A stretch of 5,658 bases of DNA. Source: CBDUXZ01 sp965371325 [NCBI: uncultured bacterium]. Lineage in GTDB: Bacteria > JAUYMQ01. Positions 1 through 5,658 of the stretch are shown piece by piece (the first letter of the stretch is position 1; every line of letters begins with the position of its first letter). The notes beneath the pieces were generated by a model, which was given only the letters and a program-made list of their open reading frames with translations, did not search any database and was not told where the DNA came from. The stretch covers positions 1 to 5,658 of the forward strand of contig CBDUXZ010000153.1 in the NCBI GenBank assembly GCA_965371325.1, given 5' to 3'. Made by a program: the position numbers and the translations under genes.

Positions 1-198
1 GTCGTGGTGATGGGGCCGACGGATCGCCGCTACGGTGCGATGAGTGAAAATTACGGCCACGTGGTGCGGCGCGATGTCCGCTGCGGCCCCTGCCATCTCA
101 AGGTGTGCCCGCTCGATCATCGCTGTATGAAGCTCATTCAGCCGGAGGAAGTGGCCGCCGCGGCGGAGGTGGCGCTTGGTGCGGGGGCTGAACGATGA
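1..198 (+). CDS. waaF: ADP-heptose:LPS heptosyltransferase (GT9, WaaF-like), C-terminal fragment
   Basis: Only the last 65 residues are present; the gene enters from the left edge already in frame. GT9 heptosyltransferases transfer heptose from ADP-heptose to the LPS inner core at the cytoplasmic face of the inner membrane. The fragment opens with VVVMGPTD, the typical GT9 C-domain strand and GPT/GPS loop near the donor site. A Cys-rich stretch follows (residues 28-42 of the fragment: CGPC, then VCPLDHRCM), resembling the 'CxPC...CPxDHRCM' segment I recall from heptosyltransferase II proteins outside the enterics. It ends with a PEEV-type helix. The stop overlaps the next start as ATGA (195-198), so the two are translationally coupled. 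The adjoining ADP-heptose genes support a heptosyltransferase role. WaaF rather than WaaC or another GT9 paralogue is an inference from the Cys/DHRCM signature; the N-terminal domain is not visible. Confidence 0.87.
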   Translation, partial: VVVMGPTDRRYGAMSENYGHVVRRDVRCGPCHLKVCPLDHRCMKLIQPEEVAAAAEVALGAGAER

Positions 199-1214
199 GC
201 CGGCAGGTCCGGCAGTTCAGAGGGGCCATCGACGCGTTTCGAAGCACGAAGATCGCCGTCCTGGGCGATTTCACCGCGGACGTCTACGTCTATGGAAAAC
301 CGCACCGTGTTTCCAGAGAAGCGCCCGTGGTTGTGGCCCGTTACGAGCGGGAGTCGATGGTGCCGGGCGGCGCTGCGAACGTCGTCATTAATCTCTGGGC
401 GCTCGGAGCGAAGGCGCTTCCGGTGGGTGTTGTCGGCGAGGATGCCCAGGGGCGGGATCTGGTCGAACAGCTCATCCGGCGTGAGATTCCCGTTAACGGT
501 ATCGCGAGAGATTCGCGTTCGCCTACGATCACGAAGACCCGCTTCATGGTCGGGGACGTTTACGCCCCTCCGCAGCAGGTGTTCCGAATCGATCACCACG
601 CCGACGCCCTGCTCCACGAAGCCGCGGAGTCAACAGTTCTCGAGTCGCTGGACAAGGCCGCGGCGGAGGCCGACGCGTTGCTCGTCTCCGACAAGGCGCA
701 CAGCGTGCTCACCGAAAAGGTGGCGGCGCGCGTCCGCGAAATAGCGGCCTCGGGAAAGCTTGTTTGTGTCGACAGCCACGCGCGGTACGAATTTCTCAAG
801 GGTGTGCGAATCGTGACACCCAACCAGCGGGAGGCGGAATACACGATGGGTATTCTCGCCCGGAGCGAGGAGGATGTTGTCCGTCTGGGGTTTCGTCTGC
901 TTGAGCTCCTCGAAACAGCCATTGTCGTGATTACGCGGGGAAACCAGGGGATGATGCTCTTCGAGGGGGGCGGGAGTTTCACCAAGATTCCGGTCAGCAA
1001 TTCGGACGATGTCATCGACGTCACGGGCGCAGGGGACACCGTGACCAGCGTCCTAACGCTTGCGCTTGCAACCGGCGCGGATCCCCTCACAGCCGCGCTT
1101 CTGGCCAATCACGCCGCGGGCATGGTGGTCATGCAGAGCGGCTCGCGGGCGGTGAGCGCGGAGGATCTTCTCGAGGCGATCCTCGACTGGAAAGAGGAAG
1201 GCCAGGGGCGATGA
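195..1214 (+). CDS. rfaE1: D-glycero-beta-D-manno-heptose-7-phosphate kinase (HldE N-domain as a separate gene, PfkB family)
   Basis: A 339-residue cytosolic PfkB/ribokinase-type kinase, about the length of the HldE kinase half. The known family reaction is ATP-dependent phosphorylation of heptose 7-phosphate at C1, giving the 1,7-bisphosphate for ADP-heptose synthesis. Visible motifs in order: GDFTADVYVYG (24-34) with HRVSREAPV just after, matching the HldE substrate-lid region (family form: GDxxxDxYxxG...ISxEAPVPV); PGGAANV (57-63), PfkB signature 1; TPNQREAE (208-215); VITRGNQGM (245-253); DVTGAGD (275-281), PfkB signature 2, with Asp281 the expected catalytic base and GAG the anion hole. 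Two internal segments differ from E. coli HldE: SDKAHS (165-170) where SDYxKG is usual, and DSHARYEF (193-200) where DPKG is usual. Start ATG 195 overlaps the upstream stop by 4 nt with only a weak G-rich SD, so translation probably relies on coupling. The stop overlaps rfaE2 as ATGA. A general PfkB sugar kinase is possible from sequence alone, but the adjacent rfaE2 makes the heptose role likely. Confidence 0.92.
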   Translation: MSRQVRQFRGAIDAFRSTKIAVLGDFTADVYVYGKPHRVSREAPVVVARYERESMVPGGAANVVINLWALGAKALPVGVVGEDAQGRDLVEQLIRREIPVNGIARDSRSPTITKTRFMVGDVYAPPQQVFRIDHHADALLHEAAESTVLESLDKAAAEADALLVSDKAHSVLTEKVAARVREIAASGKLVCVDSHARYEFLKGVRIVTPNQREAEYTMGILARSEEDVVRLGFRLLELLETAIVVITRGNQGMMLFEGGGSFTKIPVSNSDDVIDVTGAGDTVTSVLTLALATGADPLTAALLANHAAGMVVMQSGSRAVSAEDLLEAILDWKEEGQGR

Positions 1215-1699
1215 ACGAGAAAATTGTTCTCGATCACGCGGATCTCGCGGCGCGCATCAAGGATCTGCGGGCAGAGGGACAAAAGGTCGTCTTCACGAAC
1301 GGCTGCTTCGATCTGCTGCACGTGGGTCACGTGCGTTTGCTGAGAGGGGCGAAGGCAGAGGGAGACGTGCTCGTCGTGGGACTGAACAGCGATGCGTCGG
1401 TGCGCGAGCTCAAGGGAGAGGGACGGCCTTTGCAGAACGAAAAGGAGCGTGCGGAAATACTCGCGGCTCTGCGCTGCGTCGATTTCGTCACGGTCTTCAC
1501 AGGCCTTCGTTGCGATGACGCTCTTGCAACGCTCCGTCCGAACGTGCACGCCAAGGGGAGCGACTACACGCCCGAAACGGTTCCGGAAGCGCCGACGGCC
1601 GAGGCTATTGGCGCCCGTATCGCCATCGTCGGTGATCCCAAGAATCACTCGACGAAGGACATCATCTCCCGCATTCGCGATTTTGGCAGGGGTGTATAG
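1211..1699 (+). CDS. rfaE2: D-glycero-beta-D-manno-heptose 1-phosphate adenylyltransferase (HldE C-domain as a separate gene)
   Basis: A 162-residue cytidylyltransferase-like nucleotidyltransferase, full length for a stand-alone RfaE2. The known reaction joins ATP and heptose 1-phosphate to give ADP-D-glycero-beta-D-manno-heptose and pyrophosphate in the cytosol. The N-terminal Rossmann part carries TNGCFDLLHVGH (29-40), with the HxGH nucleotide-binding motif at 37-40. NSDASVRELKGEGRP (59-73) and NEKERAEIL (76-84) follow, the standard RfaE2 core. KGSDYTPETVPEA (115-127) matches the family's 'VKGGDYxPExxPEA' block. HSTKDIISRI (146-155) is the C-terminal ST-x-x-II-xRI motif that contacts the nucleotide. 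Start ATG 1211 sits in an ATGA overlap with the kinase stop. A purine-rich AGAGGAAGG (1193-1201) lies 9 nt upstream and can serve as the ribosome site. The separate kinase and transferase genes correspond to the two halves of E. coli HldE. The phosphatase step between them (GmhB) is not encoded here. Confidence 0.95.
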   Translation: MNEKIVLDHADLAARIKDLRAEGQKVVFTNGCFDLLHVGHVRLLRGAKAEGDVLVVGLNSDASVRELKGEGRPLQNEKERAEILAALRCVDFVTVFTGLRCDDALATLRPNVHAKGSDYTPETVPEAPTAEAIGARIAIVGDPKNHSTKDIISRIRDFGRGV

Positions 1700-1712: not shown

Positions 1713-2879
1713 ATGCGAATTGGCATCATCATCAATTACTACGATGCCTCCCGGGGGGGGGTGGAGCGTTACGCCGAGACACTCACGCGCGCCCTGCTCG
1801 CGGGTGGGCACGAAGTGCACCTCATCGCGTTGGAAGGGAGGGATCTCCCGGAGGGGGTTGCGTTTCATCCGGTGGAGGCCGCAACTTTCTGGTCGCCGGT
1901 CAAGACGTTTTCTTTTGCCGCGGGGGCGGCGCGTGTTCTCGATCGTGAGGCCGGGGCGTGGGACGCCGTCCTGGGGCTTGCGCGGACGGTGCGGCAGGAC
2001 GTCTATCGGGAAGGCGCCGGCGCTTACGGCGCGCTCCTCCGCGCCCGATCGCGGGACGGCCGCTGGCGAAGCGGCGAAGTACTCGCCCGCATGAATCTGC
2101 GCCACGCGGCCCAGATCACCATGGAACGACGCATCTTCGCGGCCTGGCGCCGGAACGAAACCCGGCGATATCTTTTCAACTCGCGTCGCGTGCGGGATGA
2201 AATCCTGGACCTGCACGATGTTCCGCCCGAGCGAATGGATGTTCTGCACAACCCCGTCGACACGGCGCGATTCGACCCTTTACGATGGCGCCCGCGACGC
2301 GAGGAGACGCGCCGCGCAATGGGGGTTCCCGGCGAGGCATACACCGTGCTCTTCTCGGGGAGCGGGTTCAACCGGAAGGGGCTCGACCTCGCTGTCGCGG
2401 CCGTGGCCCGCTCATCTGCGGAGCCCTGGCTCGTCGTTGCGGGAAGGGGTGACACGGGCCCCTACCGGTCCCAGGCAGAGCGCCTCGGGGCGGCCTCGCG
2501 CGTCGTCTTCGTCGGGCTCCGAAGCGACATCGAGGCGGTCTACGGCGCCTGCGATGCGCTCCTGGCGCCTACCCGCTACGATGCATTCTCGAATGCCACG
2601 ATCGAGGGCCTCGCGATGGCGCTACCCGTGATCACCACGGTGATGAACGGTGCTTCGGAGATCGTGACGGAGGGGCGCGAGGGGTACGTCGTGGATGACG
2701 CAGAGGATACGGCCGCCCTCGCCCGCGCGCTCGATCGCCTTGCAAACGACAAAGAGCGCGAGGAGCTGGGGCGTCGGGCGCGCATCCGAGCGGAGGCGCT
2801 CAATCCACGCGCGCATGCCGACGGCGTCGTCAAGGTGCTCGAGGCCGCTGTCATGATGGGCGAACCGGGTGGAGGCTGA
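1713..2879 (+). CDS. Family 4 glycosyltransferase, WaaG-like LPS core glycosyltransferase
   Basis: A 388-residue GT-B fold glycosyltransferase, close to the usual length of WaaG (about 370-390). WaaG adds the first outer-core glucose to heptose II from UDP-glucose at the inner face of the cytoplasmic membrane; the sugar used here cannot be told from sequence. The N-domain starts MRIGIIINYY and has GGVERY (15-20), the glycine-rich acceptor-side loop of GT4. No signal peptide or membrane segment is seen. The C-domain has SGSGFNRKGLD (215-225), with Arg221 and Lys222 at the usual donor-phosphate contacts and a strong resemblance to WaaG 'VGSDFGRKGVD'. Next come VVAGRGD (241-247), VVFVGLRSDIEAVY (264-277), and TRYDAFSNATIEGLAMALPVI (287-307). 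The last carries the acidic pair D290-x7-E298 in place of the classic E-x7-E. The start is set by AAGAAGG at 1701-1707. The gene contains a run of nine Gs at codons 14-17 (see the repeat entry). Its stop overlaps the next ATG by one base. Confidence is high for GT4 and moderate for WaaG function. Confidence 0.9.
   Translation: MRIGIIINYYDASRGGVERYAETLTRALLAGGHEVHLIALEGRDLPEGVAFHPVEAATFWSPVKTFSFAAGAARVLDREAGAWDAVLGLARTVRQDVYREGAGAYGALLRARSRDGRWRSGEVLARMNLRHAAQITMERRIFAAWRRNETRRYLFNSRRVRDEILDLHDVPPERMDVLHNPVDTARFDPLRWRPRREETRRAMGVPGEAYTVLFSGSGFNRKGLDLAVAAVARSSAEPWLVVAGRGDTGPYRSQAERLGAASRVVFVGLRSDIEAVYGACDALLAPTRYDAFSNATIEGLAMALPVITTVMNGASEIVTEGREGYVVDDAEDTAALARALDRLANDKEREELGRRARIRAEALNPRAHADGVVKVLEAAVMMGEPGGG
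1753..1761 (+). repeat. G9 homopolymer inside the GT4 coding sequence
   Basis: Nine consecutive Gs span codons 14-17 (cgg ggg ggg gtg), encoding the RGGV of the GGVER loop. It is the longest homopolymer I found; the next G runs are 7 (4048-4054) and 6 (4704-4709). By frame reading, gain of one G would put translation into a frame that stops at 1946-1948, and loss of one G into a frame that stops at 2092-2094. Both would remove the whole C-terminal donor-binding domain. Whether the tract length actually varies is not shown by a single sequence. Confidence 0.9.
2871..2875 (+). promoter_or_regulatory. Shine-Dalgarno at the GT4/double-kinase junction
   Basis: GGAGG lies inside the last codons of the GT4 gene, only 3 nt before ATG 2879, which shares its A with the TGA stop (TGATG). 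The short spacing and 1-nt overlap fit stop-restart coupling more than independent initiation. Confidence 0.5.
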
Positions 2880-4594
2880 TGTCCCGACGCTTGCTGCGAG
2901 ATGGCGTTCGCTGGGAGATAGACGGCCTGAGCGACGAGGCCGCCAACGCTCTGTTTGCCTGGGCTGCCGGCGAGGAGGCCCCTGGGGAGATTATCAAGGA
3001 GAACCGGGCCCGCCGCGTCATTCGCCTTCCCGGCCGCCGGGGCGATCTCTATCTCAAGCACCACCGCGTGGGTGGTTTCCCGGACCGCCTCAGGTCTCTC
3101 TTTCGTCCCTCCCGTGCGCGGGCGGAACGGGAGACGGCAGGGAAGCTGAGTGAGCTGAAAATTCCGACCATCCGTCCCCTCGCACTGGGCGAGCGGCGGC
3201 ATCTCGGACTGATCGTGGAGTCGTTTCTCATCACCGAGGGAATCAGCGGCGCCCGTTCCCTCGACATCCTCCTCGAGGAGCGGGATACGCCTCCGCCGGG
3301 CCCGCCGCGCGCCCGCTGGCGCAGAGCCCTTGTTCGCGAGCTGGCCGGTGTTGTGTCGGCGTTTCACCGGGAGGGTTTTTATCACCGTGATCTGCACCTG
3401 GGGAATTTTCTGGTGAGATCTTCCGGCAGTGCGGACGTCGCGGTCTGGCTGATCGATCTGCACAAAGCGCGGGTCTCGCGGGCTCGCGAGTGGGTGACCG
3501 ACCTCGCGTGGCTGGACTATGGTGCGTGCCCCTGGGCCTCCAGGACCGATCGCCTGCGGTTCCTGAAAGCCTATCTCGAGGCGATGCCCCGGGAGCGTCT
3601 CGGGGATGCGCCGGGTGCGTCGAAGAGGACGCCGGCGGAGTCCTGGAAGAGGGCCGCGCGCACGGTGCTCGCGGCGTCGAACGAACGAGCGGATCTGCAC
3701 CGGGCCCGCCGCGAGAAGCGCTCCCTGCGAGGCGGACCTCACTTCGTACGCGAGCCGACGCCCCTCGGCCTGCTGCATCGCGCAGAGGATGCGGATCGTG
3801 AGGAGATCCTCGCGGCGTCGCGGCTTTCAGAGGACGGGTCCGGCGGGGACGTTCTGCGTGAGACGTCCCGGGCCCGCGTGGTTCGCGTCAGGCTCGAAGA
3901 CGGGCGGACACTATGCGTGAAGCGCTACAGGAGATCCCGGTGGGCGTTTCAAGCGCGTGACCGGGCGCGCGCTGCGTGGCGCGCGGCCGAGGGGAGCCGG
4001 CTGCGGGGAATCGCCACGCCCCGCGCCCACGGGCTCATCGAGGGGGCGGGGGGGCGTGGCAGTTCGGTCTTCGTCATGGAGGATCTCGGCCACCTCCCGT
4101 GGTTGACCCATTACGCCGCCCTTACGCTTCGCCGGCCGGGCACTCCCCGTGCCCGGCGCAGGGCGCACGCGGTGGCGGTGGGCGCCTGGCTCCGGCGTCT
4201 ACATGCGGCCGGACTACGCCACGCGGATCTCAAGGCTGGCAATATTCTTGTGGATGAAGCGGGGGAGGGCTGGCGCTTTCTGCTTCTCGATCTCGAAGAC
4301 GTCGATTTCCCGGGAAAGGTAATGGCCGCCGATCGAGAACGTGCCCTGGCGCAACTCTGCGGCTCGCTCCCGCCCCGGGTCAGCCGCACCGACCGGTTAC
4401 GCGCCTTCAGGGCCTACGCCCGGGGCGGAACTTTTGGGGGCGCGCGCGAGACACGCGATGCGCTCACGCGCGTTGTGCGGCAGAGCATTGCCCGGGGGCA
4501 TCTCTGGGGACCCGGGGCGCGGAAGTGGGAGCCGGAGCCGGAAGGCTACGGCCGCTCCCCCGGCGCGCGATCGCTGCCCCTGGGGCGCACTTGA
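2879..4594 (+). CDS. Tandem double lipopolysaccharide-kinase protein (two WaaP/InaA-like kinase domains)
   Basis: A 571-residue protein with two complete protein-kinase-like domains in a row; E. coli WaaP is a single domain of about 265 residues. Domain 1 (about 45-240) is clearly WaaP-like: LYLKHHRVGG (57-66) with the ATP-binding Lys60; a likely helix-C glutamate at E83 or E85; SFLITEGISG (115-124); YHRDLHLGN (168-176) with catalytic Asp171 and Asn176; WLIDLHKAR (190-198) with metal-binding Asp193, matching the 'VIDLHRA' of WaaP. Domain 2 (about 325-520) has LCVKRY (345-350, Lys348), E371, VFVMEDL (397-403), RHADLKAGN (447-455, Asp450/Asn455) and LLLDLEDVDF (468-477, Asp471). Both domains end with the same element, SRTDRLRFLKAY (221-232) and SRTDRLRAFRAY (502-513), so the second looks like an ancient duplicate. 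No membrane segment is seen; the protein is basic and Arg-rich, as expected for a cytoplasmic or membrane-peripheral LPS enzyme. WaaP phosphorylates heptose I of the inner core; that one or both domains here phosphorylate core heptose or Kdo is inferred from family and operon context. Confidence 0.87.
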   Translation: MSRRLLRDGVRWEIDGLSDEAANALFAWAAGEEAPGEIIKENRARRVIRLPGRRGDLYLKHHRVGGFPDRLRSLFRPSRARAERETAGKLSELKIPTIRPLALGERRHLGLIVESFLITEGISGARSLDILLEERDTPPPGPPRARWRRALVRELAGVVSAFHREGFYHRDLHLGNFLVRSSGSADVAVWLIDLHKARVSRAREWVTDLAWLDYGACPWASRTDRLRFLKAYLEAMPRERLGDAPGASKRTPAESWKRAARTVLAASNERADLHRARREKRSLRGGPHFVREPTPLGLLHRAEDADREEILAASRLSEDGSGGDVLRETSRARVVRVRLEDGRTLCVKRYRRSRWAFQARDRARAAWRAAEGSRLRGIATPRAHGLIEGAGGRGSSVFVMEDLGHLPWLTHYAALTLRRPGTPRARRRAHAVAVGAWLRRLHAAGLRHADLKAGNILVDEAGEGWRFLLLDLEDVDFPGKVMAADRERALAQLCGSLPPRVSRTDRLRAFRAYARGGTFGGARETRDALTRVVRQSIARGHLWGPGARKWEPEPEGYGRSPGARSLPLGRT

Positions 4595-4715: not shown

Positions 4716-5658
4716 ATGAGCACGATCGGCGACAAAACGGAGGACGGGGTGAACGAGGCGCTCCTTGCGGAGTTCTACAAGGGACGGAACGCGCTCGTGA
4801 CCGGCGGGATGGGATTCATCGGCTCCAACCTCGTGATACGGCTTCAAAACCTCGGGGCGAACGTAACGGTTGCCGACGCCATGATTCCCGACTACGGTGG
4901 CAATCTCTTCAACATCGAGCCCGTTCGGCGCAAGATTGCCGTGAACTACTCTGATATCCGCGATTCGAATGCGATGAACTGGCTTATCCGCGACAAGGAT
5001 TTCGTTTTTCATCTTGCCGGGCAGGTCTGTCACATCACGAGTCTTACAGATCCCTTTCCGGACATCGATATGAACATCAAGGGGACCGCCGTGTTGATGG
5101 AGGCCGTACGGCACTCGGCCCCCCGCGCCAAGGTCGTCTACACGGGGACGCGGGGGCAATACGGGCCTTCCGTGAAGCTTCCGGTCAACGAGGAAGCGCC
5201 GACCAATCCCAAGGGGATCTACGAGATATCGAACCTCACGGCGGAGAAGATCATCAAGGTCTATAACGACACCCATGGAATTAAATCCGTCCTTCTCCGG
5301 ATCTCGAACGTCTTTGGCCCGCGCGCCCAGATGAAGCACTCCCGTTTTGGTGTGGCGAACTGGTTCGTGCGGCTCGCCATCGACGGGGAGGTCATCAAGG
5401 TCTTCGGCGATGGAAAGATCCTTCGCGACTTCCTCTATATCGAGGATTGCGTTGAAGCGATTCTTCTGGCAGCCACGAGAGAGGAGGCCGTCGGGGAAAT
5501 TTTCAACGTGGGGGTGGACAAGCCCGAGACGTTCCTCGAGCTTGCAAAGACTATCATCGACGTCGCGGGGTCGGGGCAGTGGGAGTTTGCTCCCTTCAGT
5601 GCCGAGCGAGCAGCGCAGGAACCGGGCGATTTCTACTCGGACATCACGAAAATCCGCA
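4716..5658 (+). CDS. NAD-dependent sugar-nucleotide epimerase/dehydratase (extended SDR), 3' end outside the window
   Basis: The first 314 residues are present and no stop is reached; family members usually run about 310-350, so little is probably missing. Extended SDRs act on nucleotide sugars in the cytosol (4-epimerases, 4,6-dehydratases and relatives). The Rossmann motif TGGMGFIG (29-36, GxxGxxG) is followed by VADAM with Asp54 at the end of strand 2, which favours NAD over NADP. PDYGGNLFNIEP (58-69), HLAGQV (99-104), a TRGQYG block (145-150) with Thr145 at the Ser/Thr catalytic site, RISNVFGPR (195-203), and RDFLYIEDCVEAILLAA (237-253) follow in the usual order. The active-site tetrad is unusual: Tyr169 is present, but the lysine four residues on is Asn173 (YEISN in place of YxxxK). 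It does not resemble HldD, so it is probably not the heptose epimerase of this pathway. It follows the LPS operon after a 121-bp gap and may supply a sugar nucleotide for the core or O-antigen. Substrate unknown; start could be GTG 4749 or ATG 4650. Confidence 0.88.
   Translation, partial: MSTIGDKTEDGVNEALLAEFYKGRNALVTGGMGFIGSNLVIRLQNLGANVTVADAMIPDYGGNLFNIEPVRRKIAVNYSDIRDSNAMNWLIRDKDFVFHLAGQVCHITSLTDPFPDIDMNIKGTAVLMEAVRHSAPRAKVVYTGTRGQYGPSVKLPVNEEAPTNPKGIYEISNLTAEKIIKVYNDTHGIKSVLLRISNVFGPRAQMKHSRFGVANWFVRLAIDGEVIKVFGDGKILRDFLYIEDCVEAILLAATREEAVGEIFNVGVDKPETFLELAKTIIDVAGSGQWEFAPFSAERAAQEPGDFYSDITKIR

Follow-up and report, generated by a model that had tools for sequence, protein, structure and literature searches.

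The window analysed here covers positions 1 to 5,658 of contig CBDUXZ010000153.1 of the uncultured bacterium CBDUXZ01 sp965371325, which encodes a predicted double kinase of 571 amino acids (P0001, 2879..4594, ATG start) within a run of lipopolysaccharide (LPS) core genes; all window features given below lie on the + strand. A preliminary description of the sequence had read this open reading frame (ORF) as a fusion of two LPS kinase domains. This reading held: 571 codons could be read, and when the halves were scanned separately against Pfam PF06293 (Kdo/WaaP kinase family, curated cutoff 21.3 bits), each alone exceeded the cutoff, with 86.8 bits (E 1.7e-24) for the N-terminal (N) half and 51.5 bits (E 1.2e-13) for the C-terminal (C) half, while the whole protein scored 134.8 bits. 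The N-terminal Kdo/WaaP-type kinase domain covers residues 34-240 (2978..3598) and also matches the WaaP structure 6dfl. An inter-domain linker (residues 241-319, 3599..3835), which features an RxxR[C/S] motif at R278-S282 and a modelled helix at 252-281, connects it to the C-terminal Kdo/WaaP-type domain (residues 320-520, 3836..4438). Similarity between the two halves is weak (36% over 75 amino acids, E 7e-6, in a two-sequence comparison) and the C half carries its own loop, H448-A-D450-L-K-A-G-N455, and D471-L-E-D, which agrees with the view that the halves have diverged.

The catalytic residues previously named for the two halves (K60/K348, H169-D171/N176, H448-D450/N455 and D193/D471) are all in place, and their conservation was followed in an alignment of 60 proteins, comprising the window protein and 59 distinct relatives after identical proteins had been collapsed. 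In the N half, the ATP-binding Lys60 (3056..3058), aligned to WaaP K51, is Lys in 58 of the 60 proteins, and Glu83 (3125..3127), the αC glutamate aligned to WaaP E78, is Glu in 59. The catalytic loop H169-R-D171-L-H-L-G-N176 (3383..3406) keeps D171 in 57 proteins, N176 in all 60 and H169 in 45 (Gln in ten), while D193-L-H195 (3455..3463), the counterpart of WaaP D188-L-H190 (PMC6147952), keeps D193 in all 60 and H195 in 30. Within the linker motif, R278 is present in 44/60 and R281 in 45/60, with Lys in 11 more. The C half is similarly conserved at its ATP-binding Lys348 (3920..3922; 58/60), its catalytic loop (4220..4243; D450 57/60, N455 57/60, H448 47/60) and the metal-binding Asp of D471-L-E-D (4289..4300; D471 57/60). 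Its αC glutamate position is replaced, by Ala366 in the window protein (Glu in 5/60), and is followed by a well-kept Trp367 (53/60; Ala366-Trp367, 3974..3979). Overall, both sites retain their Lys, Asp, Asn and metal-binding Asp in 57-60 of 60 double kinases, and the loop His is looser. The nearest relative, which belongs to a separate metagenome-assembled genome (MAG; locus L004), is 58% identical over 565 amino acids; the C half is closer to it (70% identity over 194 columns) than the N half (57% over 206 columns), and the C half therefore looks not to have decayed. Together with the conserved residues of both sites, this similarity speaks for both catalytic sites being under selection, as judged from the alignments. 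A decayed C half was considered and rejected on these grounds.

A whole-protein model was built from ten aligned double kinases (mean pLDDT 84.1, pTM 0.79) and a separate model was made for the C half alone (pLDDT 90.1, pTM 0.87). The whole-protein model best matches Pseudomonas aeruginosa WaaP 6dfl (Z 19.9, 230 residues, rmsd 3.8, model residues 10-276), which is also the best PDB match of the whole-protein sequence, aligned there to the N half. For the C-half model, WaaP (Z 19.3, rmsd 3.4 over 227 residues) and human PRPK (Z 19.5) are tied; Foldseek ranks WaaP first for this model, and WaaP is also the best match of the C-half profile among PDB sequences, with E 6.8e-23. In these predicted models the WaaP fold extends over nearly the entire 6dfl chain of 241 residues, with 230 aligned for the N half and 227 for the C half. 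Based on these matches, both halves are WaaP-like kinases by model, and neither is predicted to fail to fold as a kinase, an outcome that the preliminary description had raised as a possible objection.

The two copies of an SRTDRLR element that had been noticed in the protein are present at residues 221-227 and 502-508. The N-half SRTDRLRxFxAY element, SRTDRLRFLKAY (3539..3574), aligns with the acyl-ACP-docking helix of WaaP (ACP, acyl carrier protein) at WaaP residues 220-231, which hold R221, R222, R226 and R229, all among the mutated ACP-binding residues (PMC6147952). The C-half profile is aligned to WaaP at SRTDRLRAFRAY (4382..4417), the second copy of this C-terminal helix element. Among the basic positions of the two elements, R222 is kept in 17/60 aligned double kinases, R503 in 23/60 and R508 in 48/60, and an ACP-docking role in the double kinase is possible from these alignments. 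SRTDRLRxFxAY does occur in both halves, as had been pointed out, but it is no special mark of the double kinase because single-domain WaaP has the same element.

The two-domain layout is not peculiar to the window. Bacterial and archaeal genomes were scanned with the search directed at the active-site motifs. Of the 25 loci obtained, nine (L004-L009 and L012-L014) encode both domains in one ORF, while L010 has its halves in two overlapping frames. The two-domain ORFs come from genomes placed in Myxococcota, Planctomycetota (including Candidatus Anammoxibacter), Candidatus Auribacterota and Thermodesulfobacteriota, where L004 is labelled 'Deltaproteobacteria bacterium' and its Myxococcota placing may merely follow from that label. 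Groups of related genomes were then searched with a ten-row double-kinase alignment (A3, which leaves out L010; the C half of L010 is included in alignment A4). Matches were taken to span both halves if they started at or before position 150 and ended at or after position 480 of the 556 query positions, and the two counts that follow include the centre genome. Spanning matches were present in at least 48 of 78 relatives of a planctomycete (one with an in-frame stop within the match) and in 15 of 98 relatives of a Desulfobacterales genome (two with such a stop). All 30 of the 30 loci returned from the planctomycete sample gave two-domain ORFs, and the spanning matches in G143 (L096) and G201 (L092) of the Desulfobacterales sample gave none. 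When the window protein served as the query among relatives of the L004 genome, a match across both halves was present in 2 of 98 genomes (the L004 genome counted), and ORFs in the retrieved loci added four further two-domain cases (L061, L064, L070 and L074). Two-domain ORFs were also found in 2 of 159 genomes of Aeromonas relatives, and a search from relatives of G396 gave matches in 4 of 148 genomes, among them G396 and G415, the query's own sources. As these samples are not random, the fractions mean that the layout is common in some groups and rare in others, and no more. A single-sequence query over genome contigs gave no confirmed match, a phylum-wide search returned the centre genome alone, and a plasmid tblastn search yielded four Escherichia coli records at ~27-28% identity, one of them annotated RfaP. 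Judged by sequence, the two-domain layout is a widespread family. The suggestion of an undescribed arrangement therefore stands in part: the open-licence literature (most subscription journals lay outside this scope) holds no characterised double kinase, but the layout itself is widespread.

Profiles for N-type (d1) and C-type (d2) domains, built from the ten-row alignment, which holds nine of the 59 relatives, revealed a nearly constant domain order across the distinct relatives: N-type then C-type in 55, both C-type in four (L060, L070, L044 and L153) and reversed in none. The window protein itself is N-type then C-type, with R278/R281 in its linker and A366 at the αC position. A wider comparison covered 201 domains, from 60 double kinases, 79 single-domain rows and the two window halves; single hits shorter than 140 residues were dropped, and a few of the single-domain rows, such as L020 and L028, are ordinary Ser/Thr kinases. 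In a FastTree phylogeny of these domains, a starred set of 83 rows comprises 58 of the 61 C halves, 19 singles and six N halves. Many branches are long, 91 of 198 inner branches are open and the exact history is unsure, so we limit the claim to two domain kinds that, on this evidence, were joined long ago, and leave the number of joinings out of it. The order counts nevertheless point to an old fusion and not to a recent duplication. Recent tandem duplication was rejected given the low identity between the halves and the mostly separate clustering of N and C halves. Further architectures were seen among the relatives. A GT2 glycosyltransferase is fused ahead of the double kinase in L061:3-2354 (which ends at the locus edge) and L070:343-2865. 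Several planctomycete ORFs of 692-1036 amino acids (L117, L118, L124, L125, L133, L135 and L138) have extra N-termini that by eye look like upstream frame extensions, and these were not counted as fusions.

The neighbouring genes of the window support the proposed LPS-core setting, with hldE domain I, hldE domain II, a GT4 gene, the double kinase and an epimerase gene in one run. The window begins with a heptosyltransferase-like C-terminus (1..198), a weak assignment (TIGR02195 E 0.0043 at positions 279-335 of 339, no Pfam match). Next come hldE domain I (heptose-7-phosphate kinase, 195..1214; TIGR02198 278.7 bits, cutoff 345) and hldE domain II (heptose-1-phosphate adenylyltransferase, 1211..1699; TIGR02199 167.4 bits, cutoff 181.5). 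hldE is therefore split into two overlapping genes (195-1699), each scoring below its NCBIfam cutoff. A GT4-family glycosyltransferase gene (1713..2879; PF00534 E 1.6e-25) follows, and its stop overlaps the kinase start as TGATG, while an NAD-dependent epimerase/dehydratase gene downstream runs off the window (4716..5658; PF01370 E 9.4e-48). A check for the same layout beside hldE genes was positive for L004, which shares the order hldE2 (end only, 74% identical over 61 amino acids), GT4 (69%), double kinase and epimerase (81.5%). A 58% identical homologue in the same gene order in a separate MAG indicates that the window ORF is no chance or assembly accident.

Twenty neighbours were scanned in seven other loci, with L008 left out. 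Double kinases adjoin genes for a heptosyltransferase (L009, L012 and L013), a lipid A acyltransferase (L009), an O-antigen ligase (L009 and L012) and GT4 enzymes (L005 and L007). The Desulfobacterales locus L012:522-9337 features three single Kdo-type kinases (522-1223, 5976-7142 and 7167-8345) in addition to the double kinase, beside the heptosyltransferase and O-antigen ligase genes.

By NCBIfam cutoffs, the double kinase is not RfaP, KdkA or RfaY. It scores 115.8 bits against the WaaP/RfaP heptose(I) kinase model NF011703 (best stretch 32-240; equivalog cutoff 170), 73 bits against the Kdo kinase KdkA model NF002475 (cutoff 142) and 14.7 bits against the heptose(II) kinase RfaY model NF007684 (cutoff 248). 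The N half shares the K-E-HRD-DLH layout and the ACP-helix element with WaaP/RfaP, and the IDLH[K/R]A motif that had been called WaaP-like does match WaaP. In contrast, the same label does not fit HRDLHxGN: WaaP is a one-domain protein that reads HRDxYxxH, with His where the two-domain kinase has Asn176 in its N half. KdkA is likewise a Kdo/WaaP kinase with some match, but is a single domain (model length 241). The next structural neighbours of both halves are the atypical kinases Bud32/PRPK (TP53RK) and Rio, at sequence identities of ~14-22%; these kinases act on protein or in the KEOPS complex.

A possible relative in a studied organism is P. aeruginosa PA5006, which is described as a putative LPS kinase without an assigned role in a cluster with waaP-wapP-wapQ (PMC8005017, PMC8707732). 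A cloned PA5006 fragment spans residues 300-493 (PMC8707732), so the protein is long enough for two domains. In G396 (L155:2-3634), one of the genomes reached from Aeromonas, a WaaP-like kinase (HRDFYLCH, PF06293 E 4.8e-44) is preceded by an ORF that looks GT-like by eye and followed by a 458-amino-acid two-domain kinase. By gene setting, this row recalls that of PA5006 with waaP, wapP and wapQ. The G396 protein and a 492-amino-acid protein of G415 are remote to the window's family (27-81 bits with the d1/d2 profiles), and kinship of PA5006 to the double kinases is a lead only.

Taken together, we consider it fairly probable that the double kinase is a bifunctional LPS inner-core kinase that phosphorylates two acceptors, a reading preferred because active sites are conserved in both halves and LPS genes lie alongside. 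In this reading, a single cytoplasmic chain holds two Kdo/WaaP-type domains with separate ATP sites. The domains would phosphorylate different acceptors on the lipid A-core as it is made at the inner membrane, in step with the glycosyltransferases encoded beside the double kinase; heptose or adjacent hydroxyls of the core are the likeliest acceptors. The C half would have to function in the absence of the αC Glu-Lys salt bridge that is usual in kinases. The grounds in hand are the predicted kinase folds, catalytic residues conserved across phyla, an order that was never seen reversed and LPS neighbourhoods in several members; from these we infer catalysis by both halves, a core-sugar acceptor and a different acceptor for each half.

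Several observations weigh against this assignment. Of 61 C halves, 56 lack the αC Glu, and a WaaP E78A mutation in P. aeruginosa raised EDTA sensitivity 128-fold, with growth still supported (PMC6147952). WaaP Y165 and H168, both listed as substrate-binding (PMC6147952), align with H173 and N176 of the N half. As for the neighbourhoods, L013 has an amidase on one side, some neighbours are on the opposite strand (the GT4 of L007 and the GT9 of L012), and no LPS gene is among the neighbours scanned for L006 (two) and L014 (two, on one side only). The open-licence literature yielded no activity or core structure for any member.

The main rival takes one half, most likely the C half, for a regulatory or substrate-positioning domain, which may bind ATP, so that only the other half phosphorylates LPS. 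This is possible but unlikely. Pairs of catalytic kinases and pseudokinases occur in other kinase groups, which counts in its favour, as does the distribution of the αC glutamate: N halves have it in 59 of 61 cases and single-domain rows in 63 of 79, but only five of 61 C halves do. The C halves usually show Ala (28) or Ser (17) at this position, followed by Trp in 54 of 61. In WaaP the glutamate, E78, engages the catalytic Lys (PMC6147952). A search of the alignment for a substitute found that the commonest acidic N-lobe columns in C halves are E388 (Glu in 38/61) and E401 (acidic in 40/61). Against a regulatory role, Lys348, Asp450, Asn455 and Asp471 are each kept in 57-58 of 60 proteins, which is unexpected for a dead domain. 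Moreover, C-like kinases with Ser-Trp and intact motifs also occur separately (L103) or fused to a heptosyltransferase (L011). As far as the sequences go, the conserved active sites favour two activities, and doubt arises chiefly from the αC Glu that the C half lacks. This half is either a kinase able to do without the αC Glu-Lys salt bridge or a partly regulatory domain.

L103:536-2181, from a genome related to G005, encodes a C-type kinase as a separate ORF of 264 amino acids with Ser-Trp and intact Lys, HxD, Asn and Asp. Since the tree places it near the L087, L088 and L093 C halves (from other genomes of the same sample), the fusion may have been split in the L103 genome. In Nitrospirota, L011:2554-4566 and L011:7791-9656 encode, respectively, a GT4 fused to a Kdo-type kinase that has the αC Glu, and a GT9 heptosyltransferase fused to a C-like kinase; the latter kinase reads Ser-Trp at the αC position, with Lys, HxD, Asn and Asp intact. 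In L078, which shares the Ser-Trp, Lys is replaced by Arg and HxD by FPD. The C-like kinase of L104 begins at the locus edge and was not used as a separate gene.

A rather doubtful alternative is that both halves are kinases whose substrate is another glycan or lipid-linked sugar, such as the outer core, O-antigen or an exopolysaccharide precursor, and not an inner-core heptose. The low NCBIfam scores for RfaP, Kdo kinase and RfaY would fit this, and the downstream epimerase/dehydratase resembles nucleotide-sugar modification genes, as do the DegT-like and acyltransferase-like ORFs that L004 also carries (by eye). However, heptose-building genes lie directly upstream in the window, and the neighbours in other phyla include heptosyltransferase and lipid A acyltransferase genes.

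We know of no enzyme assigned to the di- and triphosphates of the Pseudomonas core. Such groups are present in some Pseudomonas LPS cores (PMC8005017), and they could in principle arise by a relay in which the N half phosphorylates a core sugar and the C half, as a distinct type of kinase lacking the αC glutamate, then phosphorylates that phosphate or the next position, but we regard this as improbable for the double kinase. The short element shared by the halves and the two overlapping frames of L010 might suggest that the two-domain ORF arose by local duplication or as an assembly or frameshift artefact. This is hardly credible, given that two-domain ORFs occur in many independent genomes and that N and C halves from different phyla mostly cluster by type; such a reading is refuted by the homologues, including the L004 protein.

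LPS-core kinases have been characterised mainly in Proteobacteria, and the phosphates that they add to the core hold the outer membrane together. WaaP is essential in P. aeruginosa (PMC6147952). If the relay were true and PA5006-like members acted alike, a missing step in core polyphosphorylation would be named. The double kinase also provides a clean test of how dispensable the αC glutamate is, as it holds a conserved kinase half that lacks this residue. The family, which is frequent among the planctomycetes sampled and also occurs in anammox and Desulfobacterales genomes, offers a direct handle on LPS phosphorylation in these bacteria.

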